Assembly (NCBI RefSeq): GCF_025024155.1
Contig: NW_026251710.1
Location: 930,001 to 994,000, forward strand
Direction of reading: 5' to 3'
Source of the DNA: Gamsiella multidivaricata
Lineage: Eukaryota; Mortierellomycota; Mortierellomycetes; Mortierellales; Mortierellaceae
DNA length: 64,000 bases
Shown: piece after piece, positions 1 to 49,897 of the stretch
Layout: each line of letters opens with the position of its first letter
How positions within the stretch are numbered: the stretch's first letter is position 1
The notes under the pieces: model-generated
Databases searched by the model: none
What the model saw: only the letters and a program-made list of their open reading frames with translations
What the model was told of the DNA's origin: nothing
Program-made: the position numbers and the translations under genes

Positions 1-1913
1 TATCTATCCCTCAATGTTTGTGAATTTGGTCTCCATCTGTTGTTTGAAAAATGAATTTGCTTCACATCACCAGAACCTTTGATATACGTGTCTACTGGAT
101 GCGCGGTCCTTGAACAGTATGCGACTGCAGGGCTCATCACCGCAAAAGAAATGCGAAGATAAGGTGTCTTCACCGCACTGACCCCGAATAAAAGAATCCT
201 TCACACAACGTGAGAGATGGGCCTCTTTTGAGCCAGATGTGAGAGATGGTGGCCTTTTACGTTAAAATAAGGAATTATCATAATAAAAAAACAGATATGG
301 AGTTCGAAGCAGATTCCACTGCAGGTAAACCAAATGACGGTTGCGCTCAGGTCTTCAAACCGGCTCACAGTGTGCTTCAAAATAAATTAACTGACTCACA
401 TGCCCTGTACACATTCAAGACCATTGTCTGGATGTGTGCGCAAGTCATTTAATGGCCCTGCATGCATGCACTGTGCATGCGCATTGTCTATATTAGAGTT
501 GGGGGAGAGGCACATTGTCGGAGGGGAGGGGGGGCTCTTCGACGCGTCCAAAACAACAAAACGAAGGGCAGCGCCCGGAGTGGGGTATGAGTCGAGGAGA
601 GCATGTGCCTACAGCTCTTCTGGATTTTGCAAGTCCGGTAAACAACTCGACATAATGTTATGTGTCTGTATGTGTGTACCTGAAGGCAAATGTCAAGTGA
701 TAAACTGAGTGGTTAGTTGCCCACCGAATCGGACTTCGAGCGCTCAGTTTATGAGCAACAGACTGTTTCTATACAGCTGATGCTTTCGATGGTCCCCCTT
801 CCCTCCTCTCAGCAGGATCTATTTTTGCGTAGAATGAGCTATTGTCAGTATGGATGCCGGTGCAGCCATCTGTAAATACCAAGACGCATCATAGTCTGCG
901 CTCTGGGACAGGATCAGGGATGCCTATAACAGTCCAGATCACTTCCATGGCTCTCTACGAATAAATCTACGCGAATTCGGTGCCAGAAAAAAGAGTATAG
1001 GTATTGAGTAAACGGTGCATGTAATGGATTGTATAGCTCCCACACGTCAGTTTAATATGAGAATCAGCCCCTTTGGAAAAGTAATGACAAAGTTTTCTTT
1101 GTTAATGTAAATTGGACCAGCACCATAGCACCAACATTTGGCTATATTTCCGGAATTGTGTTTTGGACTGAGATGTTGATCGTGCCGTGGGAAGAGGACG
1201 GTGTGGGGACACAGTGCGGTGTTATCATTCCTCTGCTCTCAAGCTTGGCTCCACAAATTAGTCCGCTGCATTGGGTGCTGTCTGCGTGAGCACAAGCATG
1301 TTGACGACCAATTAGTGTTTCGGCTCGCTGGCAGAGGGCGTACAAAAAGGACTTGTAAGCATTTTTGTCCAGAAAAGGGAAATCGAGCCGGGTAGGAGAG
1401 TTCCTCCTGCACAGAGGCCCTACGCCTAGAGGTCGTGTCAAGGGAGATGAAGAAGACCATCTGCCGTTCCTCCACACGCTCTGTTCTTTCTCCTGCTCGT
1501 TCTCGTTGGTCGTCCACCATTGCTCTCCGCCTCTTTATTCCTTATTGAAGCTGACGCGCCTTGGAGAGACAATAAAAACGGCCCTTCAGATCAGCTTTCT
1601 TCCTTTCTTTCGCTCTCCCGCCAACATCTTTTCAACATCTTAGGCTTCATTTTTTTTGTGCTTCTAAACGAGGGCTATCTGCAGTACTGTACACGCCCTC
1701 ATTCTCCTCCTCTCCACACACTCTCCACTCTCAGCTCTCCATCCTCGCAATCTTCACAGCGCACCTCGTTTAGCAACTTCACAAATACATCGCCCTAATC
1801 CTATCCGCCTTGCGTACCACCCCGCTCGACCTCTTCCTTCCCCTGCCCCTGCCACTGCCATCTCTTCCTATTCCCTCTCTTTCCTTGCCTGACACCCGCA
1901 GCTCACTAGGACT
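1..1913. other. Upstream intergenic region without a recognised gene
   Basis: No open frame here carries a recognisable domain or a consistent splice structure. The last 450 bases (about 1470-1913) are strongly pyrimidine-rich, as is usual for fungal promoters and 5' untranslated regions, and lead into the transcription factor start at 1914. A short GCATGC-rich stretch lies at about 459-482. Confidence 0.5.
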
Positions 1914-4900
1914 ATGGAAGCGAGTCAAGTTGTCCGCCAGAAGCGCCTGAAGGCAGGTACGGCATGCACCAATTGCCGTAAAAAGAAGCTAAGGTGCACA
2001 GGCACACCCAACTGTGCTCGCTGTGTCAATCACAAACTCGTGTGCGTTTTCGACGAGGCTCTATTTCTGAAGACAAACACTCCCCAGAGTCTGTGCGTAA
2101 AGATCGGAGCCCGGCAGGCTTCATCCTCGTACACGTCCTCAGCCGCCTCTGCTTCGCACCCAGATCGATCCAAATCCAGCCATTACCACCGCCAACAAAG
2201 ACTGTCGTCACACCAGCCATATCATCGTCAAGGAAACTCGTCTTTCTCGTCAACGTCCTCCTGCTCCGGTGATGAGATGGCGGATCAGAGGCACGCGACA
2301 GAGCTCCCAATAGATCGTCGCATGTCTGCCAGCAGCACGACGAGTTTCTCGAGTCTTAGTCCTGGCCCTTCCTCGCCATATTCGTATCAATACAACCCTT
2401 ATGCATCAACATCGCCTTCCTATCATCATCATTCCCCATTATCGGACCCATCATCGTCCTCAAGGGCCAGGATGCACTCTAGTGCCACCATGGTTCGCGG
2501 TGACACGAGAGCTGGTTCCTTGGATCCTGCTCTCGGTGAAGATGCAAGAAGAAGCATAGGTAACGATCGTCCATCGCCGCCAATCACATCTGTCTCAAAA
2601 GGACAAGGATCCACCAAGTCAACGGAAAATAAAAGAAACTCGGGGCAAAACTCGAACAGGATGCCATCCAACCAAGGCCGACAGCCTGATGGATCGTCTT
2701 CAGATCCTACGCGCCATGATTTACCAAAGTCTCTGTACAAAGAAGGTGTATCCAAGTCTGCGGTTAGTATGATGAGTCTGGATGGTCATGGCCAACAGTA
2801 AGTCGTCGCAAACATCCTGGATAGATTTTTAATGTCGTTCTTCTGCTTGTGGTTTTAAAGCCATTGACACCAACTCTTGCATGGCTTTTTTCTTGCATTT
2901 ACATCCTTAGTTTCCATGGAAGCAGCTCTGGATTTTATGTCTGTCAACTCAGCTCACGTTCCCGCTTAGGTGTCTGTAAGTTATTTGAACTTCTTGCAAA
3001 ATCTTCGAAGCATCCGAATGGACAGTGTACAAATGGGAAGGGGGGAGGGGCCTGATGCACATAATTTCCTATCCTGTTAGATCCTCTTCCTATGGCTCAT
3101 TTAAATGACAGCGACCTATGGTCGCATTCGCTCCAGATGACCAGCGAGCGCGAGCTTCCATCCAAAGAAGGGATGGAATATCTTCTCGGTCTATACTTTC
3201 AGTACATGTATCCCTTCGCACCCATGTTCATCCGCAAGACATTTATGGAGGCCCATCGCCAGAACCGGCCGGATCTCTCCCAAATCCTGATCTTGAACGC
3301 AATCTTCTGTAATGCATGCTGGTACTCGGATGACCCTGTGGTGGCACAGGAGTCGACAAAATATTTCAACCGGGCAAAGATCATCCTGGATGAGACGTAC
3401 CATGTCTCGAATATTAGCACGATCCAGGCACTGCTGTTGATGTCGCACCATCAGTACGCGACGGGCAATTATTCAGGAGGTTGGCTTTACACAGGCATGG
3501 CGTCGCGTATTGCTACGGTAAGCTTTTATCATGACCAAATCTGCCAATATTCTCATTTATTTTCAAAAGTTGAATCTTTAACCATTGAACGCAATGTTGT
3601 CAACGTAGGATATTGGCCTTCATCGTCAAGATGTGCAGTCGGATGAGCCTGAGCAGGCTGAGATCAGGAAGCGCGTCTGGTGGGCATTGTATCTGTCCGA
3701 CCGCTTCGGTAGCGCTATCTTGGGCCGACCTATGACGTTTCGCGATGAAGACTTCAATATGGCGTTGCCCTCGGACGACTGGATTCCCGAGGTGATAGGC
3801 GAGGATGTAGTCGAGCAACCTTACGAGCCCGAGAAAACTATCTCCTGTCGACTTCTCTGGTCCATGAAGTTGTTCATTCAAATGGGAAAAGTGTTGAACA
3901 CAATGCATTGCATCAAAGCCGAGATTAATGGCACCTATTTGGCAGATGTCTCCAAGACACAGCTTCCGCAGCTGCATAACGCCCTGACTTCTTGGTTCCT
4001 GGCATTACCGAACGAGCTCATGTACACGCCGTACACTATGTCGCCCGGGACAAATCATCCCCCGTCGCCAACAGCTGCGTTAATGCATATGCTGTACTAC
4101 ACGTGCTTGACAATACTGCATCGGCCTTACCTCCGTCCTGTCGACTCTGCAGCGATCGACAGCAACTTCTTGGTCTCGTCCCGTAACATCTGCACCGCAG
4201 CTGCGACGAATGTCTCCCACATTGCGGACTCACTGATGCTACATGGTCAATTCCGAGATACCTGCTATTTCGGAATGAGCTGTCTCCTCGCCGCGGGTAC
4301 CGTGCATGTCCACAACACCATCAGCCCGACGCTCGGCAACCGCGAAACGACCCGCGCGGGACTTGCTAAGACTATCAAGGCCGCGCATGATCTCGGAAAG
4401 ACCTTCCCTATAGCCGATTCCCTAATTGCGGTGGCATTGGATGTCTTTACAAGCCAGGCTAATTCAGTATCCCCGGAGTTGGCGACGTCGATAGAGAATA
4501 TTTACGAGGCCACTCGGTTGGCGCAGTCGTCTAAGGGTGGGCCTGGCCCTGCTCCATCAATTCAGTTGCGACATCCATATGGTAACTTCTCGATGCCGCT
4601 GCCGGAATCATCGCAGGAGCAAGGGGCGACAAAGCTGAGTGCGATGTGGCAGACGCATATCACGTCGGCGGTGGCGATGGCGGCTATTGCGTTTGGGGGA
4701 ATGGATCCTTCTCAGCAGCTGGGCCAGGAGGGAGGGATACAGCTCTTTGCGACCCCGCTCGAGTTGCCAGAGGCACTGAAGTTGGCGTCGATTGAGAGTA
4801 TGATGTTCGGGCAGGTCAATCCGACGGCTGCTGCCCCTATCACTCCTACTGGGACAGATTGTGCTCTAAATTCATTTGGCTCGGGCGATAATTTTGGTTT

Positions 4901-4930
4901 AAGATCTTTGCAGCAGCAGCAACAACGACA

Positions 4931-4961
<31 letters not shown>

Positions 4962-5702
4962 CAACAGCAACAACAGCAACAACAGCAACAACAGCAACAA
5001 CAGCAACAACAGCAACAACAGCAACAACAGCAACAACAGCAACAACAGCAACAACAGCAACAACCGCAACAACCGCAACAACGACAGCAGAAGCAGGATC
5101 TGTCCATGACTGCGTACCAGGACATGCAGCAACCTATCTTACGGTCTCAGCAGCCACAGCAGATCTCGGCCAACATGATGATGCATTATCCAGCTCCATT
5201 CACGCCAACGCCGAGTACTCGAAATCTGATGCATGAACTATCGCCCAGTCTCAGATCTTCACTACAGATGCAACAGCCGTCGTCGATTCAACAGCATGGC
5301 AATAGCGCGGTCATGGAAGACGACGCTGCAGATCCACCCTCACCGCCTGCTGTTTCTTCGGACGACATGGATATAGAGGCATCATCGTTATCGGATGACT
5401 CTGACCGACAGTCGGTAGCGCAAGCAGCAGAGGCGGTAGCGGCACCTCGACAGGATGCTCAGACCCAGTGTGACATCACTTCCGGTAACGAGTATGACAA
5501 ATACGCTTCTTCGTCATCTGCAGAGGCTAATGTCCATGGTGCTGCACATGAGTCGTTTGTAGCGTCGTTGACGAGTGCTGATATGGGCCTGAACACGGCC
5601 ATACGGCAGCAGGAGTCGGCGGGTGAGGGCGGTTATAGGCGCCATCGAAATGTGGAGGAGGTGAGCAGTTTGGTTTTTGATGAGCGGGCCATGGAGTGCT
5701 GA
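1914..5702 (+). CDS. Zn2Cys6 fungal-specific transcription factor with long polyglutamine tract
   Basis: This predicted nuclear DNA-binding regulator is modelled as join(1914..2797, 2911..2975, 3081..3517, 3609..5702), giving 1,159 residues with phases that fit at every junction. Residues 18-44 form a binuclear zinc cluster with spacing C-x2-C-x6-C-x5-C-x2-C-x6-C. After a Ser-rich linker, the short second exon supplies the GSSSGF motif that usually precedes the fungal-specific transcription factor domain. Exon 3 and the start of exon 4 carry that domain, including DIGLHRQD and RKRVWW. The C-terminal half is low in complexity: nt 4929-5063 encode 45 consecutive glutamines from mixed CAG and CAA codons. 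Glutamine-rich regions often act as activation domains, but that is inference here. The target genes are unknown. The 65-nt exon is the least certain part; a shorter 23-nt exon (2953..2975) would also keep frame but loses the conserved GSSSGF motif. Confidence 0.88.
4911..5090 (+). repeat. CAG/CAA microsatellite encoding polyglutamine
   Basis: A trinucleotide tract, mostly a CAA-CAA-CAG nine-base pattern, lies in frame in the last exon of the transcription factor. It encodes five Q, one R, then 45 uninterrupted Q, followed by a P/R/K-interrupted Q tail. The reverse-strand polycysteine and polyleucine frames over it are shadows. Confidence 0.95.
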
Positions 5703-29093: not shown

Positions 29094-32266
<3,173 letters not shown>

Positions 32267-41928: not shown

Positions 41929-41941
41929 ACTACAAGCGCTC
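41929..41941 (+). repeat. Left copy of 13-bp direct repeat (candidate target-site duplication)
   Basis: ACTACAAGCGCTC, identical to the copy at 49885-49897. Two copies of the same 13-mer in roughly 200-base windows on either side of the element are unlikely by chance. Sequence beyond the 13 bases differs on both sides. Confidence 0.5.
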
Positions 41942-42136
41942 GTTGGAGCATTAAAAACGCACCAACTACGCCAGCAAAAGGCGACGCCATAGAATTTTTT
42001 TGGTGAGCATAAGCAAATACATGCAGTAAAAGAATTTCGGCGTGCAATAACAGAATTATGCAGCTTTAGGATATAAATTACACCTACCGATCATTTTTAA
42101 ATGTGCTTGCGAACACATATATGGTTGAGATGGGGT
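41942..42136 (-). ncRNA. Candidate guide-RNA (omega RNA) scaffold 3' of the Fanzor frame
   Basis: In TnpB and Fanzor systems the guide-RNA scaffold usually overlaps or follows the 3' end of the nuclease gene and ends at the transposon boundary, with the guide taken from flanking DNA. This minus-strand stretch lies between the Fanzor stop and the candidate left end. It has a seven-pair stem-loop 19 bases after the stop (42101-42118, arms ATGTG and CACAT with further inner pairing). Position and structure fit, but no RNA evidence exists, so this is inference. Confidence 0.3.
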
Positions 42137-42680
42137 TTAGGCACTTCCTGGGGCCTGGCTAGTTGCCGATTCCTGCCCTGATGCCGCATTGGCCGCACGC
42201 TTGCGCCTTGGAGCTCCTTCTTGTTCTGCAGCCGCGGTTGATGCTGTCCTCTTTCGGGCCACACTGCCCTTGCTGGCGCTGGTGCTGCTAGTACTACTGG
42301 TGCTATTGGTGCTGCTAGTGCTACTGTTACCATTGATGCTGCTGCTACTGGTGCTCGCGCTATCGGTTACTGTCTGTGTAGCTTCCATCCAAGGATATCT
42401 ACCATTCTCATCTACAGGCTGAAGATAGAGTGGCTTCTGTTGCTGAAGCAAGTGCCCTTGAATAACGTTGCAAATATTGTGGCCCGCCATGATATCGCGG
42501 TGCATGTATGTCTTGCAAGTCTTGCAATACAGCCGACGTATTTGAACCTGGCCGACAAACTCCTCGCACATCGGACACTTCTTTGACGTGTAGTACTCAT
42601 TGACGCCCACGACAATATACCCGAGCGCCCTTGCCTAACGGACACAGAACGTAAGGCGCCTCATTAGCGTCATCAGTAGC

Positions 42681-42717
<37 letters not shown>

Positions 42718-44155
42718 GAAATCGAATGTCTTGCAATGAAGCACTAACCCTTTGAACAAAGTACGACTGGAAGGACTCATGTAACGAGGAAAGTCGTCCC
42801 GTGGATGAAAACTTGCCTAGACCAATGCCGATTACAACCTTGTCCTCTTCATCTCGCTGTCTACCAAGCGATCCTCCAACCATATTGAGCAGGCGATCTG
42901 CGATGATGTCGAATTCTGCCTCTCTAGCTTTTCTGGCATCCCACTGGTGCTTTTTGAATGTGGCGCTTTTGTTGTAGAACTCGTCGAGCTGCTCCTTGAC
43001 GCCTGCTAATCCCGCAACGTACTTTTCAACGCTGGCATCCTTTCCGCGAAGGGCTGGTAGCTCGCTTTCGATGTTGCTGATAGATTTTGCTGCGCCTAGC
43101 GGGATCGACCGTTTGCGTTCTTCTAACCAACGTCGAAACTTGAATGTTGGTTGGTATACGGCCTTCTGCTTTACAGCTAGGTTGTAAAAGACCTGGGAGC
43201 TGCGGGCGGAAGCCTCGGTGTCATTGTCATTGTCAGGTTGTTCGGTACCGACGGCACTGTTCTGTTGATGGAAGCTCTCCTTGGATCTCGGCATACTCGC
43301 TCCTGTAACACATGCTTGCTCTGGATTATAACTGTCGTTGCGTGGCTTTCCATTTTCGAGGCTGACGGATTTTTTCATGTCATCTAAGGTCTTCTCAGGC
43401 AATAGAGCGCTCGCTCCAACCACAAACGCTTGACCAAGATCGAGACCTAATATCTTGATTTTCTCTGGTTCACAGTCCCAAAGAACTGCGACATCCTGCT
43501 TCGTCTTGACAACGTTCCGAACCTCAGTTAGGTAATAGTCGACTCCACCCACAGTGGACGTAATCCGAGAAGGCAATATGTCCGTGGGATGCCGCCTGTA
43601 CCGAACCGAGAGAAGCTCCTTCAGCTTGAATGCCGTTAACTGGAGACGAAAGCCATCGGTCCGAATAGATCCGCGAATAACGTAACCGCGTTCCTTATAA
43701 GTGCGGGGGTCGAAATCCTCGTTCTGAATGATTCTCAGGTGCTCTTTGATCTCTGCAAGTGAAGGTGTCGCGAGGTTGTTGAATGATTTGCTGATTCCGG
43801 GCATGCGACGCTTTTTATGACCCAGTCCTACGTCGGTGATGAGTGTCGTGAGGAGGTAGCCTGGTGCTTGGTTGGCCAGCCAGTACGACATGTCAGACAA
43901 CGCAGGACGATAGTCCTTGGCTCCATGAAGACTCTGCAGCTTCGCCTTGAGTGTGTCGCTCTTCCAAAAGATTGAAATCAATTCCAGTTCCGTGAACGCG
44001 ACGAACGGCTGCGCGGAAGGCGTACACGCCATTAACTTCCGAGGGTTCTTGGTCAGCGGGTTCAGACGGTAAAAGTTCTCGACCGCAGAGACGTCGCCAC
44101 GAATGTCAATGCATGTCCCAGCCGGCAAGAGCCCTTTGACCAGTTGTTTCTTGAG
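42137..44155 (-). other. Fanzor nuclease domain (exons 4-5)
   Basis: Domain-level entry. Exon 4 begins LKKQLVKGLLPAGTCIDIRG and carries RuvC-I; exon 5 begins ARALGYIVVGVNEYYTSKKC and carries the zinc ribbon and RuvC-III Asp. After the nuclease core there is a tail of about 100 residues, Ser/Thr-rich then Arg/Lys-rich (about 42,137-42,420). Intron 4 contains the T20A17 palindrome. Confidence 0.85.
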
Positions 44156-46714
44156 CTGTTTTAAAGTTGCCGTGTGTAAGGTTCGAGTTAGCGGAATAGA
44201 ACCTTGTAACCTTGAACCTTGTGTCCCTTGTATGTACATGTACATATGTTGTTCCCCCCTCTCTTTTTTCTCTCTTTCTTTCTCCCCATTTCGCCACAGA
44301 ATACCTTCACTCTCAGTCATTCATTGTCTATGTCCAACATCGCCACTCCGGCATCCCTTACTCTTTCCTTCTCACATTTACCTTTTTATGGAGTTCCTTG
44401 CAGCCTTTTCCGTACAATCGCTTGAGATCAACCGACAGCTGCGCGATTATGCTTCGCAGTATGACTGACCCCGGGTATGGCATTCTCGTGTTGATGATAG
44501 CAGCATCTTTTCGTTCCAGTAAGTGTAGCTCCTGCGCTCGATCGATGAACCTCCGCGTGCACTGTATACTCTTCGTTTTGCCGCTAGGGATGATGCCCGA
44601 ATACACATATGTTGTTAATATCCCAAGGAACCTTTGATGATCGTCCTTATCGACCTCCGAATCTGCGTCTCTATCCTCCTGCTCCTTGTCGATCTCCGAA
44701 TCTATGTCCTCCTGCTCTTCGCCATCCTTATCACCATCCTTATCATCATCCTTATCACTATCCTTATCACCATCATTGTCCTTATTCGTACCCGGTATGC
44801 GCGGGCAGATGAGATCCAACAAATCCCTATCCGTTTCCTTAAAGATGGCTGGATCAGAGACACGCTCGATGAACCGACCAAGGAGCTGTTGGCAAGTGCG
44901 TTTTGTATCGGCTGCAAGGCGGATGGCTTCCCGGAGGCATCGGAGTACTTCAGAAGCTTCATCAGGGCTCAAGTCTTCAGCTCTTCTGACATTCGCGGAT
45001 AAAGTCCCAACATCAAGTGTAACTGTTGGATGCTCCCAGTCAAGAGCACGCGTGAAGTCAGCCTTGTTCATCTCGTCAACTGACTTAACTTTCTTGGCGG
45101 TTGCTGGTTCAGGTTGCGTCGTATTCTGTGGAGGAATCACTGGCGCGGACGGTGCCATCGGAGTTGTCTTCCAGGGCTTCCATTGGTATTGTGTCATTGA
45201 CTCTGGTAAGTCGTGTTGTATCTTGCGAGTCCGCACCTTCATAGAATACCGTGGGCGATGACGAGGTTTTTCTTGCTGTGAAACCGCTTGATGAAGTGTC
45301 GAAGACGTGGGCGCTACCGCAGGTTGAGGAAATGTTGAGGGTGAAGGTGCTTCCGTGAGTTGCGTAAGTGTCAAAAGCGGGGGTGTAGCCGCGGGCTGAG
45401 GATGTGTCGAAGGCGGATGTTCAGGTCGATCAATTGTGCGGTAGCGGTTGAATGTTTGTGAAGACTTGTGCCTTTGGGATTCATTATCATGCGTCTCACT
45501 AGATGCATTGCCATAGTACGTAGACTAGAGTTAGTAATGGACGCATTCAAGCGAAGGCAGAAGAATGAAGACTACAGGAGTAAAATTTTTTACCGTTTCC
45601 TGGCTTGAATGTTATCGCGCCGTTCTTTCCCATTGTCAATGCATTCCATTTGCAGACGGCGAAACGTAGACCAAAGTTCCTCGTATTGCAGCATCTGGTG
45701 GGACTGAGCTTGCTGCACATGCTGCAATGGTGTCTGCTTATGGTGCACAAACACCTGTAGAGAGGTCGCAAAGGTCAATTTCTTGTCGTTTTTGAGAATG
45801 ACACGACTGTTCGACAGGTACTCTTGCACCATCTCAGCTGGATCTAGAATTAAAAGGCAGGCAGCAGCAACACAGTTAGAGTTGGAATTTGTTTACAAGA
45901 ACACGCTAGAGTCTTTCGGTTGAACGCTAAACATTACCCTCTCCCTTTAACTGCTTAATGATACTGAAATTCGTTACACATCCCAATGAAGGAACGTTGG
46001 CGTTGTAGTCGTTCGATGAGACCACACCCAAGACTATGAGTTGCGTCCTGTTGATTCCAAGAGTAGTCAGGACATCGGGGACGTTGTACGCAAGGATGCG
46101 TCCTCTTGATATTGGTCGCCAGATGATCGAAATGTGTTGGTAAAGGAGCATATCACTGTCTCGCGATAGGACAACGTCTCCGGGCAAACAGTCTTGCGCA
46201 ATTTTGAGATCCGCCTCGGTCGGGCACACTTCTACAGACCACCCTCTCTGTTGTAAATACGCTGCAAACGCTTGTCGAGCCTCGAATGTCCAATAGAACC
46301 CCTTCGCCAAGTTTTTCTTCAGGCGAAAAAACAACTGCTTCCTCACACGCAACTTCTCCTTCACCCGAACCTTGAGTACGTCGATGTCGCTCTCAACCAA
46401 CTTTAAAGCCTTCATACGGTTGTTTTGCCGACGCTGGTGTGTCAAATCCTTTTCCTGACAGGGAGTGCCATCAAGGTACAGAGCGAGTTGGTCGGGGTCG
46501 CGAACTTCTGTATTTCTCTCTCGACGATCGAGTGGGCAGTATCCATGTCGTGGAACGAATAGGCTTGGCGGATAGTTGAGAAGTGGGTGCCTTGTATATC
46601 CACGTGTAACTTGGAACCGTTCTGAAGATGACTGGAGAGAATGTATCGTCCGTCGAGCACCTCAGCTTCATAGCCTTTCTTATTCAGAAAAGGCCAGAGG
46701 CCCTCAATGCCCAT
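42137..46714 (-). CDS. XPG/FEN1-like nuclease plus Fanzor (TnpB-like RNA-guided nuclease), one apparent frameshift
   Basis: Five exons join in phase: 46714..45938, 45843..45594, 45498..44382, 44155..42749 and 42634..42137, about 1,350 residues if the frameshift in exon 1 is ignored. Exon 1 is an XPG/FEN1-type domain: MGIEGLWPFLNKKGYEAEVL, then LHVDIQGT, LYLDGTP, EADLKIA, SRDSDMLLY and VVSSNDY, the usual acidic active-site positions. A Pro/acidic linker follows (exons 2-3). Exons 4-5 are Fanzor-like: RuvC-I ILGLDLGQAFVVGA, a VVIGIGLGKFSS segment at the RuvC-II position, a zinc ribbon CPMC...CKTC, and RuvC-III HRDIMAGHNI. Fanzors are eukaryotic TnpB relatives shown in 2023 to be RNA-guided DNA nucleases. 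Near 46,500 the frame shifts by one base between REIQKF and the LYLDG strand, with no intron signal. The Fanzor part could be a separate gene if the 44383-44154 intron is wrong; a frame opening at 44320 exists. Confidence 0.75.
42681..42717. repeat. T20-A17 homopolymer palindrome inside Fanzor intron
   Basis: Twenty T directly followed by seventeen A, lying in the 114-base intron between Fanzor exons 4 and 5. It can fold into a perfect hairpin without a loop. Such runs are prone to sequencing and assembly error. Confidence 0.9.
44692..44785 (-). repeat. Asp/Lys-encoding simple repeat in the XPG-Fanzor linker
   Basis: ATCCTTATCAC-like units on the plus strand encode, on the minus strand, the acidic repeat DKDSDKDDDKDGDKDGEEQE in the linker between the XPG-like and Fanzor domains. 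Confidence 0.8.
45938..46714 (-). other. XPG/FEN1-like nuclease domain (exon 1), frameshifted near 46500
   Basis: Domain-level entry. Acidic residues that coordinate metal in FEN1/XPG enzymes are all visible: Asp in VDIQGT (residue 39), Asp in LYLDG, Glu and Asp in EADLKIA, both Asp in SRDSD, and Asp in SSNDY. The exon length is 777 nt, which leaves the phase one base short of what the downstream acceptor at 45843 needs. This agrees with loss of one base between about 46,499 and 46,508. Confidence 0.75.
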
Positions 46715-46917
46715 GATGGAGTTTAAGAATGAAGGAGTTTGAAGAATGAAGAATGAAGAAGTTGATTGACAAGAGTGCAGCAAGAATTCATTATTTTATT
46801 TGATTTCATCGTTTCACTGTGAGAATAATTTTCCCAGTTATTATTCATGCACCGAGAAGGTGTCTTACTCTCTATAAAACACCCACCCCTATCCATCTCC
46901 CCCCTGTGTCAGCGATC
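46715..46917. promoter_or_regulatory. Divergent promoter region of the transposon genes
   Basis: The starts of the XPG/Fanzor gene (46714, minus) and transposase (46918, plus) face away from each other across 203 bases. A TATAAAA box at 46873-46879 sits about 40 bases before the transposase ATG. The side facing the nuclease gene is A/G-rich with GAATGAAG repeats. Shared control of both genes is inference from the layout. Confidence 0.6.
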
Positions 46918-49437
46918 ATGAACTCACTCAGAATTCGGGATGTCGCTCACTTCAGCCACGACTATGATCCATTCATCCCACCAGCTCCGTGCGCTTTCAC
47001 AGAAGGAATAGATCCTCTTCCCCTGCACAAAGATTTCACTACCCCAGAAGCCTTCCGTTCATTCTGGAAAAGAGAGCGCGAAAGAAGCCATTGGATTTTC
47101 GACTCTGAGAAACACTCCCGTGTGTGGTACAACTATGAGTCACCTCTGGGCAGCCTGCCTGTTGCCACCATCAAAGTAACTGGACGTCCGCCTCAATATG
47201 ACTGGTCCATCAAACATCTGTGTCGATTCTCAGGGGTCGCAAAGAAGCAATCAGAGCATGGACAACGCGATTCGGTTCGTCAAAACTGCCCTGTCTTTAT
47301 CAGGATCCAGAAGTTGCGCGGCGAAGAGAGAGTGCGCATTGAATACCACTGGCTGCACTCGCATGATACGGACCCTGTATTTCATTCGGCTTATCCTCGA
47401 GGTCGAAATGAGCAAAAGTGGATAGAATCTATGGTTAAAGACGGTAGAAACTGGAGAAGCATAAGAGAAAAGCTGACACTAGCCAGCTCTCAGATAACAA
47501 CGGTAAGATGTTACCTATTGCAGTCTGTTCTGTTATCTCACTATCCTCTTCTATGGAGCTAACGCCTTTGCATACACTAGCTGGAGGCCAACCCGGAAGA
47601 CCCTCGCCCCAAGTCCCTCCTTATTAGGTACGACGATGTCCGAAGCGCTATGTACCGACACAGGACTTTGGCATACAAGAAGAACTATGATGTTTCTTTG
47701 AGTGTGAAACTTTGGATGGACACCATTCGGAAAGAGGGTGGCAAATCGCTATTTGATGAAGATGTAGCAAAGCTCGATGGCAAGAACTACATGATAGCCT
47801 GGTCTTCTTCATTCCAAATCAAGGTTCTCTTTGCATGTGCTCTCAGTACCTTTTCTTTGTTTTTATTTTTTTTTCCTGCTAATTCAAATCGCTCCTCTGT
47901 TCCCAATGTACATGTAGATCATGCAAGACAACGCAAACATTGCTTGTGATTCGACGCACAAGGTTGTCAAGGAACTCAGGCCGTTAGAAGGATCTGTCCA
48001 ATCCGGGTACTTGTTTACTCTTCTGGTGAAGGATGTTCGCTCGCTCCAAGCGATACCTATCTCGTTCATGATCTCGAACACGGAATCACAGTACGTCAAC
48101 GCGAATGGAGATGCATAAAAGACAATGTTAGGTATAAAGACTGACAGCGACTGCATAACCACAGGTATCCGATCATCGCATGGCTCTCGTGGCTGAAGAG
48201 GGAGTGCAACCTCCGGATGGAAAGGTTCATGGTGGACTGTGCTAAGACCGAACATCAAGCAATCAGAAGCGCATTCCCGTGCGCCTCTATTTACTTGTGC
48301 CTCTTTCATGTCGCGAAACTATGGGAGGAGAAACTTCGGACAAGCACTTCCGTAAGGATAGAAAATACTAGGGAGGGCATACAGTCATATCTCTCAAACC
48401 ATTAACACGACTCTTTCTCGCGCAATTCTAGATAGCAAATGCAAAACAAATGCGTCCGCTACTGCGAAAAATACGCGAAGCAAAAACCGAGGCTGATCTT
48501 GAAGAGCAATGGGAGCAGTTTAAAGAGCGGTTTCAGAATGCTGATGTACTCATCAAATACATGGAGAAGCAATGGATCAACAAGGAAAGCATGCGCCGAT
48601 GGGCACCTCTCTATCGTTCAGTAAGTAATCGAGATCTCAGCTTTCTGATCGCCTTGCGCAATAGGTTTGGGTCTGGGTATGTGATTGAGTAGACAAAGAC
48701 TGAGATTCTATCATTTGGCAACGGTGCTCTTAAATAGCTGTGTGTAACAAGACGAAGGAAGTGAAAAAGAGAACTAACTTTAATAATAATTACTATACAC
48801 AAATACATATACATATACACATATACTATAACTACAAATCAAAGTCATTAACATACACTATCTCATTAAATGGCCTGGTCTACGATATGTAACTGGTCTT
48901 ATTCTAGTCAATTTGTTAACGTTGAAGCACTTTATTCATTTGAAATAGCACCATCAACATATTAACACAAATAACCTTGTGGAGCGATGGCATCGAAACC
49001 TCAAGCAAAACTTTCTGGCGGGAAAGCGCAACCTGCGAGCCGACGAACTCATCTACATCCTGCTAGGTGTGGTGGAAAGCCAGTACCGCACCACATACTT
49101 CAAGATCACAAGCGGCCTTCAACCCCGTCGCCTAACATTCCACGAGGAGGCACGGCGTAAAAAGGCCATCCAAGTTGATTCGGCTCGGGCGAGAACATTG
49201 ATCGACATTACTAAGTCTGTGGAAGGCTTGATCTCTGTGTTGTCGTTTCAGACCCCGCCTGAGGCGCAATATGCTATCGATATATTGTCGGACAAATGGC
49301 TCCGCTCCTGTTCTTGCCCTGACAACGAAAAACACGGTCTACCGTGTAAGCACATGTTCTTGGTATCGAGGATCTATCCAGGGTTCCAAGTGTGCTTTGA
49401 CAACAATGCAACTGAGCTTAACGGGACAGTCAATTGA
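46918..49437 (+). CDS. MULE (Mutator-like) transposase with SWIM zinc finger
   Basis: Modelled as join(46918..47502, 47581..47823, 47918..48090, 48165..48351, 48432..48620, 48949..49437), 621 residues, all phases consistent. It is the transposase expected to mobilise the element. The N-terminal part is a FAR1/WRKY-GCM1-like DNA-binding region (FRSFWKRERERSHWIF, KHLCRFSG, YHWLHSHDTDP). The MULE DDE domain has its first Asp in IACDSTHKVV, the second in MERFMVDCAKTEHQAI followed by the LCLFHVAKLW helix, and the Glu in TNNLVERWHRN. A SWIM finger C-S-C...LPCKHM closes the core. The frame stops at 49437, but a coding-like Glu/Gln/Arg coiled coil continues to 49798 in the next frame, starting near DENEETVLEEDYGP. 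The true protein may therefore be about 120 residues longer with a frameshift near 49,420-49,437. The 328-nt fifth intron is unusually long. Confidence 0.85.
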
Positions 49438-49798
49438 CGAGAATGAGGAAACCGTCCTGGAAGAGGATTATGGCCCTCCGTTAGAGGAGTTTCTCTCTCC
49501 GAATCTACTTCAACAACTACAAGCAGCACGAGAGGAGGAGGAGCAGCGACTCCAAGCCGTGCGACAACAGGAGATGCAGGAAAAAAGAAGACGGCAGGAG
49601 GAGGAAAGGGCTCAAGTGATGTGGGAGTGTGAGGAGACAATTCGCCAGGCTTGGATGGAGCTTGGTCGAGTGGTTCACAATGGCAAGACCAGGAAGTGCA
49701 CGGAGACTTACTTTGTTTCTGCGGCGGCACTCCTTCAGAAAGCAGTACGCGAGATAAAAGGAATAGATGAAGTTAATGCTGGTTCTCGCTGCCAGTAA
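49438..49798 (+). pseudogene. Out-of-frame C-terminal extension of the MULE transposase
   Basis: A +1-shifted frame reads IDENEETVLEEDYGPPLEEF and then a charged coiled coil (AAREEEEQRLQAVRQQEMQE) up to NAGSRCQ and a stop. It has good protein-like composition, immediately follows the transposase stop, and has no plausible start or splice site of its own. A one-base shift in the transposase is the simplest reading. Confidence 0.5.
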
Positions 49799-49884
49799 AT
49801 TCTCTTAGTGCACATTCATTATTTCCGCACGCGAGAAAACAATAAAACCCAACGCTATTTCGAGCCAATCAGCGAGGCCAGACT

Positions 49885-49897
49885 ACTACAAGCGCTC
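49885..49897 (+). repeat. Right copy of 13-bp direct repeat (candidate target-site duplication)
   Basis: ACTACAAGCGCTC, in the same orientation as the copy at 41929-41941. It lies 87 bases past the last stop codon of the transposase region (49798). Confidence 0.5.

Follow-up and report, generated by a model that had tools for sequence, protein, structure and literature searches.

A gene joining an XPG-type nuclease to a Fanzor in a MULE-type transposon of Gamsiella multidivaricata

Introduction

Fanzor1 proteins have been described in MuDr-type elements of fungi that are flanked by 9-bp duplications, and their N-terminal halves are highly variable (Bao and Jurka 2013, PMC3627910). The biological roles of eukaryotic Fanzors are described as remaining unknown (PMC10432273). 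Here a stretch of 64,000 nt from Gamsiella multidivaricata (GCF_025024155.1, contig NW_026251710.1, positions 930,001-994,000 of the forward strand), referred to below as the window, was examined by computation. Its minus strand carries a gene whose predicted protein joins an N-terminal nuclease of the XPG/EXO1/FEN1 type to a C-terminal Fanzor, and this gene lies within a MULE-type DNA transposon. The computation shows that the two parts are fused and that this fusion is conserved, and it also shows the fold and the active-site residues of each part and the setting in a transposon.

The Fanzor part resembles the Fanzor1 proteins SpuFz1, PpFz1 and GtFz1 in its fold, zinc ribbon, alternative glutamate, TDG motif and carriage by a DNA transposon, but the window family has approximately 480 extra N-terminal residues that include a complete second nuclease domain, and the window copy has D-L-G in place of D-P-G in RuvC-I. 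The host of PpFz1 is presumably a fungus of the Mucoromycota sort. PpFz1 is likewise a fungal Fanzor1 with an extra domain, FRI, but this is a small insertion inside the Fanzor that binds cyclophilin and is not a nuclease (PMC11423790). The elements ROr-4, PBl-3 and MCi-4 of other fungi also combine Fanzor1, a MuDr-type element and 9-bp duplications, although they were reported without the MuDR transposase, and in the window element a transposase stands in a head-to-head arrangement; in PGv-1 of a giant virus a second nuclease accompanies the Fanzor element, but this GIY-YIG nuclease is a separate protein of a different fold (PMC3627910).

The literature searched contained no Fanzor-XPG fusion, no joint mention of Fanzor with XPG and none of Fanzor with Mortierella; Fanzor occurred together with FEN1 only in an unrelated review, and together with exonuclease and resection in one review. 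The available part of PMC3627910 makes no mention of an XPG domain for the Fanzor MuDr elements, and an earlier mention of the fusion in a 2023 survey of eukaryotic Fanzors is possible.

Layout of the XPG-Fanzor gene

The initial annotation had read a single gene of five exons on the minus strand from 46714 to 42137. All of its exons and introns were present, with GT/AG borders and intron phases of 1, 2, 0 and 0:

Exon 1, 45938..46714, minus strand: larger part of the XPG/EXO1/FEN1-type nuclease domain; the reading frame changes near 46502
Intron 1, 45844..45937, minus strand: phase 1
Exon 2, 45594..45843, minus strand: last part of the XPG fold, and a helical segment; extent of the fold taken from the model of protein P0005
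Intron 2, 45499..45593, minus strand: phase 2
Exon 3, 44382..45498, minus strand: conserved motifs of the linker (NRYRTIDRP at 45449) and its disordered part; the Fanzor fold starts at about 45080
Intron 3, 44156..44381, minus strand: phase 0; contains a Met at 44320
Exon 4, 42749..44155, minus strand: Fanzor REC, WED and RuvC; TDG motif at 43660, RuvC-I aspartate at 43441
Intron 4, 42635..42748, minus strand: phase 0
Exon 5, 42137..42634, minus strand: alternative RuvC glutamate at 42598, C4 zinc ribbon at 42577-42517, last RuvC aspartate at 42496

Exon 5 ends in a Ser/Thr-rich tail with basic clusters, followed by the stop at 42137. When spliced, the window copy is free of stops from about 46.50 kb to this codon, a span that takes in the greater part of exon 1 and all later exons. 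In a sister copy, L010, identity is 99.5-100% across exons 1b to 4, exon 5 has gained 45 bases in frame, and the reading frame is open between 46283 and the stop codon; the contig of L010 stops short of the exon 1 break. Within the Ser/Thr/Asn-rich tail (42250-42360) the length differs by 27-99 bases between copies, always in multiples of nine. At 42681-42720 in intron 4 an A run adjoins a T run to form a near-perfect palindrome, which also varies in length among copies.

Evidence for a single gene

Four further loci of this genome (L039, L040, L041 and L045) have all four introns at identical places and in identical phases. Donors were located by look-up, with the intron 4 donor of L041 seen separately, and four acceptors lay outside the look-up. 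Exon 3 holds both the conserved stretch that follows the XPG domain, located ahead of the first Met of the exon, and the start of the Fanzor fold. The initial annotation had named a separate Fanzor start at 44320 as a case that would divide the gene. Such a start was rejected, since this Met falls within intron 3, an intron conserved in five loci, and the Fanzor fold begins in exon 3. Structure prediction of the joined protein had been suggested at the same time, and two structure models gave the XPG-type fold and the Fanzor fold.

A search of 5.8 billion proteins returned single annotated proteins in the order XPG, helix, linker, Fanzor. With domain profiles built from the fused relatives, 28 of 154 proteins were found to carry both parts, in constant order throughout (P0004, P0016, P0061 and P0111 with fewer than 70 residues of XPG), and 15 of the 154 contained more than 150 residues of XPG together with the Fanzor C-terminal part; relatives that always keep the two domains in separate genes, the other case named beforehand, did not turn up. 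The fused proteins are gene predictions throughout, and several are flagged as partial. Two of them, P0130 from Linnemannia gamsii and P0133 from Benniella, score above the Pfam cut-offs for both XPG_I and TNB. The genera named for fused proteins were Dissophora, Mortierella, Linnemannia, Entomortierella, Podila, Haplosporangium and Benniella, and among the named matches of the protein search all belong to the Mortierellaceae. One fused protein, P0138 from Mortierella alpina, bears the database name 'Rad2 nuclease', while others are named after XPG-I or TNB alone.

Two of the protein searches were seeded with words from the first 500 residues, on the XPG side, and therefore favour XPG-bearing proteins. 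In one such search nine of 33 matches (P0143-P0146, P0148 and P0150-P0153) had XPG without the later Fanzor profiles and P0154 had neither; these ten proteins are 468-692 residues long, too short for a whole Fanzor. Another search gave 70 Fanzor-only architectures among 127 proteins, which carry no weight against the fusion because that search scored the 7,996 best of a larger set of candidates, of restricted length, and listed 120 of 211 matches. Among 60 non-NCBI proteins (metagenome or similar) there was no support for splicing of introns 1-3; P0018 spans the intron 4 site cleanly, P0012 reads through intron 4, and the frame of P0154 continues across intron 2 and enters intron 3.

The two parts are also linked across the Gamsiella genome (37.5 Mb in 180 contigs), for which site counts are lower bounds. 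The TNB family gave 109 matches and the XPG query 118. A same-strand TNB lay within 8 kb downstream of 57 of 100 merged XPG sites, where about 1.2 were expected (0.0116 per site). A wider search with two extra XPG queries and a Fanzor-core query gave a same-strand Fanzor less than 6 kb downstream at 75 of 103 merged XPG sites, the list including four sites picked by eye; four sites had a same-strand Fanzor upstream and eight an opposite-strand Fanzor. The gap between XPG and Fanzor core had a median of 1,732 bp (n=47). These counts rule out a chance juxtaposition. When the count starts from the 140 Fanzor sites instead, an XPG site lies upstream of 74 of them. A 1808-residue open frame over a Fanzor core on contig C32 was discarded as a run of N. 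The single gene joining an XPG-type nuclease and a Fanzor is supported by the conserved introns, the 28 single proteins, this genome-wide linkage and the two structure models, in agreement with the initial annotation.

The XPG and Fanzor distances correlate in 20 fused proteins (Spearman 0.52, with none of 2,000 permutations as high; P0135, the twenty-first, was dropped for want of overlap). For two pairs of copies dN/dS was 0.34 and 0.36 in the XPG part (0.36 for L042/L043) and 0.29 and 0.32 in the RuvC part, all from 7-25 changes of each kind. Every length change in exon 5 among copies is a multiple of three, whereas many in intron 4 are not.

The Fanzor part

The RuvC motifs and zinc ribbon claimed for the C-terminal part were confirmed, with the RuvC D, E and D present and the TNB zinc ribbon (PF07282) at 44.1 bits against a cut-off of 26.3. 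Fanzor1 proteins are described by the motif D-X(125-275)-[TS]-[TS]-X-X-[C4 zinc finger]-X(5-50)-RD (PMC3627910), which in the window protein corresponds to D955, TS at 1201, cysteines 1205, 1208, 1222 and 1225, and RD at 1232. The structure models contain a Fanzor1 fold with REC, WED, RuvC and zinc ribbon. A TDG motif in the WED domain and an alternative RuvC glutamate are Fanzor1 features (PMC10711439), and these are found at residues 882 and 1198. Two more, very diverged XPG-Fanzor types are present in the same genome (L042, L043, L044 and L046).

The XPG-type nuclease part

The window XPG part scores below the Pfam cut-offs, at 21.3 for XPG_I_2 (cut-off 24.2) and 18.6 for XPG_I (cut-off 24.9), and its assignment therefore rests on relatives, the family profile and structure. 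A Pfam scan of 15 annotated relatives gave XPG above the cut-off in P0130 and P0133, the others being below it or unmatched. The family profile matched RAD2 with an E value of 8.4e-14, and a structure model gave an EXO1/FEN1/XPG fold over the first 304 residues, with an identity of just 13-18% in structural alignment. This domain shares its fold and acidic positions with the EXO1/FEN1/XPG (Rad2) 5' nucleases, but here it is part of a transposon protein and is fused to a predicted RNA-guided nuclease.

The initial annotation credited the domain with all its acidic residues. The seven metal-binding positions are indeed present, at 46600, 46472, 46217, 46211, 46160, 46154 and 46010, but the first is out of frame with the other six because exon 1 switches frame near 46,502. 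Six of the seven aligned to Rad2 or FEN1, using the residue numbering that we take to apply to those proteins. In a pattern check the acidic positions were kept in nearly all of 17 fused proteins, the exceptions being P0135, which has no N-D-Y motif, and P0134, which has no D-G motif; at L043 an N replaces the second D of D-S-D.

The carrier transposon

The gene shares its transposon with a transposase on the opposite strand:

MULE-type DNA transposon, 41941..49887, unstranded: 7,947 bp, transposase and XPG-Fanzor gene head-to-head
Target site duplication at the 3' end, 41932..41940, unstranded: 9 bp, AGCGCTTGT in the Fanzor sense
Target site duplication at the 5' end, 49888..49896, unstranded: 9 bp
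MULE-type transposase, 46927..49437, plus strand: split over several exons or with frames broken; arranged head-to-head with the XPG-Fanzor gene
Element 3' end past the stop codon, 41941..42136, minus strand: by analogy, the putative site of the guide RNA scaffold

To within 6 bases, 12 other copies, 88-99% alike, have the same 3' end as the window element, at 41941. The 5' end was placed at 49887 from the target duplication together with transposase-side pieces found in eight further places. The duplication has 12 matching bases in the window and 9 after comparison with other copies. Its two halves agree at every base in the window and the C131 copy, and at 8 of 9 bases in the C126 copy and in two copies whose ends were matched by eye between contigs; a scripted test for a shared 10-mer across copies found none. 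The transposase has a SWIM domain at 25.3 bits (cut-off 19.6) and a weak MULE match at 20.5 bits, below the cut-off of 27.6. There is no clear pair of terminal inverted repeats; by eye the two ends show no more than a short, degenerate resemblance. The N-terminal part of the transposase occurs at 24 merged sites, 15 of them head-to-head with XPG and four with a Fanzor piece only, as counted with a shortened XPG list and five Fanzor-only sites picked by eye. The carrier is thus most probably a MULE-type element, in which the transposase and the XPG-Fanzor gene are divergent neighbours.

Near-identical copies (L010, L011, L012, L014, L015, L016 and L018) run out where their contigs end, and it is therefore likely that the assembly breaks within this repeat. 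For copies with the 3' end alone, 5' truncation by retrotransposition was considered and rejected, as 7 of 12 stop within 4 bases of a contig end, introns are kept where covered, and the transposase-side pieces stop at varied depths. The C131 copy (L017 at about 3636, L054 at about 1500) has a nested pogo/Tigger-like transposase element in intron 3, and its XPG stretch is gone. A weak DDE_3 match (14.1 bits, cut-off 28.6) lies upstream of the XPG-Fanzor locus L045 on the same strand, at 1-549, and other carriers may therefore exist.

Proposed role and alternatives

In the reading that we favour, with a probability of roughly 0.4, the Fanzor would cut a chosen site and the fused 5' nuclease would process the ends, favouring templated repair and thereby retention and spread of the element. 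The single predicted protein, about 1,200-1,350 residues long, starts with a domain of the structure-specific 5' nuclease kind, which a disordered linker connects to a Fanzor1-type nuclease at the C-terminus. In TnpB and Fanzor systems the RNA derives from the 3' end of the element and the guide from the flank. By analogy, the Fanzor part would take up RNA from the element's 3' end, with adjoining host sequence as guide, and once loaded would cut the empty donor site after excision, or an allele without the element. The XPG-type domain would trim or resect the 5' ends at the break, and repair would be steered to copying from an element-bearing template, by which the transposon would be kept or spread. 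The stronger idea of an RNA-guided nuclease with a built-in EXO1-type resecting domain, through which a cut-and-paste MULE would spread like a homing element, seems rather doubtful.

A number of observations speak against this proposal. Its repair step is built throughout on analogy and inference. The fold of the putative guide RNA at 41941..42136 was no better than shuffles (z -1.21, with 20 of 200 shuffles as good), and Rfam gave no match in the window. The RuvC-I motif is D-L-G, whereas a figure legend lists D-P-G as a differentiating Fanzor signature (PMC10711439), which we do not treat as a defining one; the fused relatives L042 and L044 have D-P-G, so this motif differs within the fused family. 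The linker has pLDDT below 50 in parts of the structure model. No upstream XPG was found for 66 of the 140 Fanzor sites, several of which are interrupted by contig ends and two of which, C98 and C131, are members of the window's family that lost the XPG part; the Fanzors of L058 and L059 had no XPG in the stretch fetched. Of 11 other copies examined, five (L012, L013, L014, L016 and L017) are interrupted, as read, by a stop in either exon 3 or exon 4. In the window copy itself, exon 1 begins MGIEGLWPFL..., with the first acidic residue, and runs to EIQKF in one frame, the remainder of the exon following in another frame that begins RDPDQLALYLDG. The stretch around the break is a single frame in L039, L041 and the proteins P0002, P0005, P0006, P0007 and P0008, so the break looks like damage or an assembly fault confined to the window copy; at other places the frames of L039 and L041 are broken too. 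The anatomy read by the initial annotation thus stands, while a whole protein from the window copy is not confirmed.

These defects would suit a relic, a formerly active fusion in decay that no longer serves any role. This is quite improbable, as copies are 88-99% alike, L010 is open over its whole coverage and the exon 5 length changes all preserve the frame. It is very improbable that XPG and Fanzor are two adjoining genes of one transposon merged by gene predictors: the predicted and partly incomplete nature of the annotated proteins would allow it, but the introns keep their places and phases, the order is constant in 28 proteins, and exon 3 links the conserved stretch that follows the XPG part, located ahead of the exon's first Met, to the start of the Fanzor fold.

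Other roles have been considered for the fused domain. The EXO1/FEN1/XPG fold works on branched or flapped nucleic acid, both the fold and the acidic residues are retained, and at 15 of 24 transposase sites the gene adjoins a MULE transposase. The domain might thus trim the element's guide RNA or open branched DNA at excision and leave Fanzor-cut ends alone. We regard this as somewhat unlikely, since no guide RNA or excision intermediate was seen and SpuFz1 and other Fanzors are active without such a domain (PMC10432273). A domain that cuts weakly or not at all and chiefly binds, so as to dock the Fanzor to repair factors, replication forks or flaps, would account for XPG Pfam scores mostly under the cut-off and for the replaced aspartate of L043. 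The acidic positions kept in nearly all of the 17 fused proteins and an XPG dN/dS about as low as that of the RuvC part make such a docking function unlikely.

A fused second nuclease under constraint in one fungal family is a direct clue to what Fanzors do for transposons. If the end-processing reading is true, the protein would be a natural single-chain pairing of programmable cutting and 5' end processing, a combination that makers of gene editors attempt by hand. Relatives annotated in Linnemannia, Podila and Mortierella alpina provide material for study.

Other features of the window

Outside the transposon, inspection by eye of the plus strand at 1893-5702 showed frames for a fungal transcription factor of the Zn2Cys6 type that contains a long run of glutamines. 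On the minus strand, also by eye, tandem AAA ATPase frames at 29094-32059 likely represent a host ribosome-biogenesis gene.

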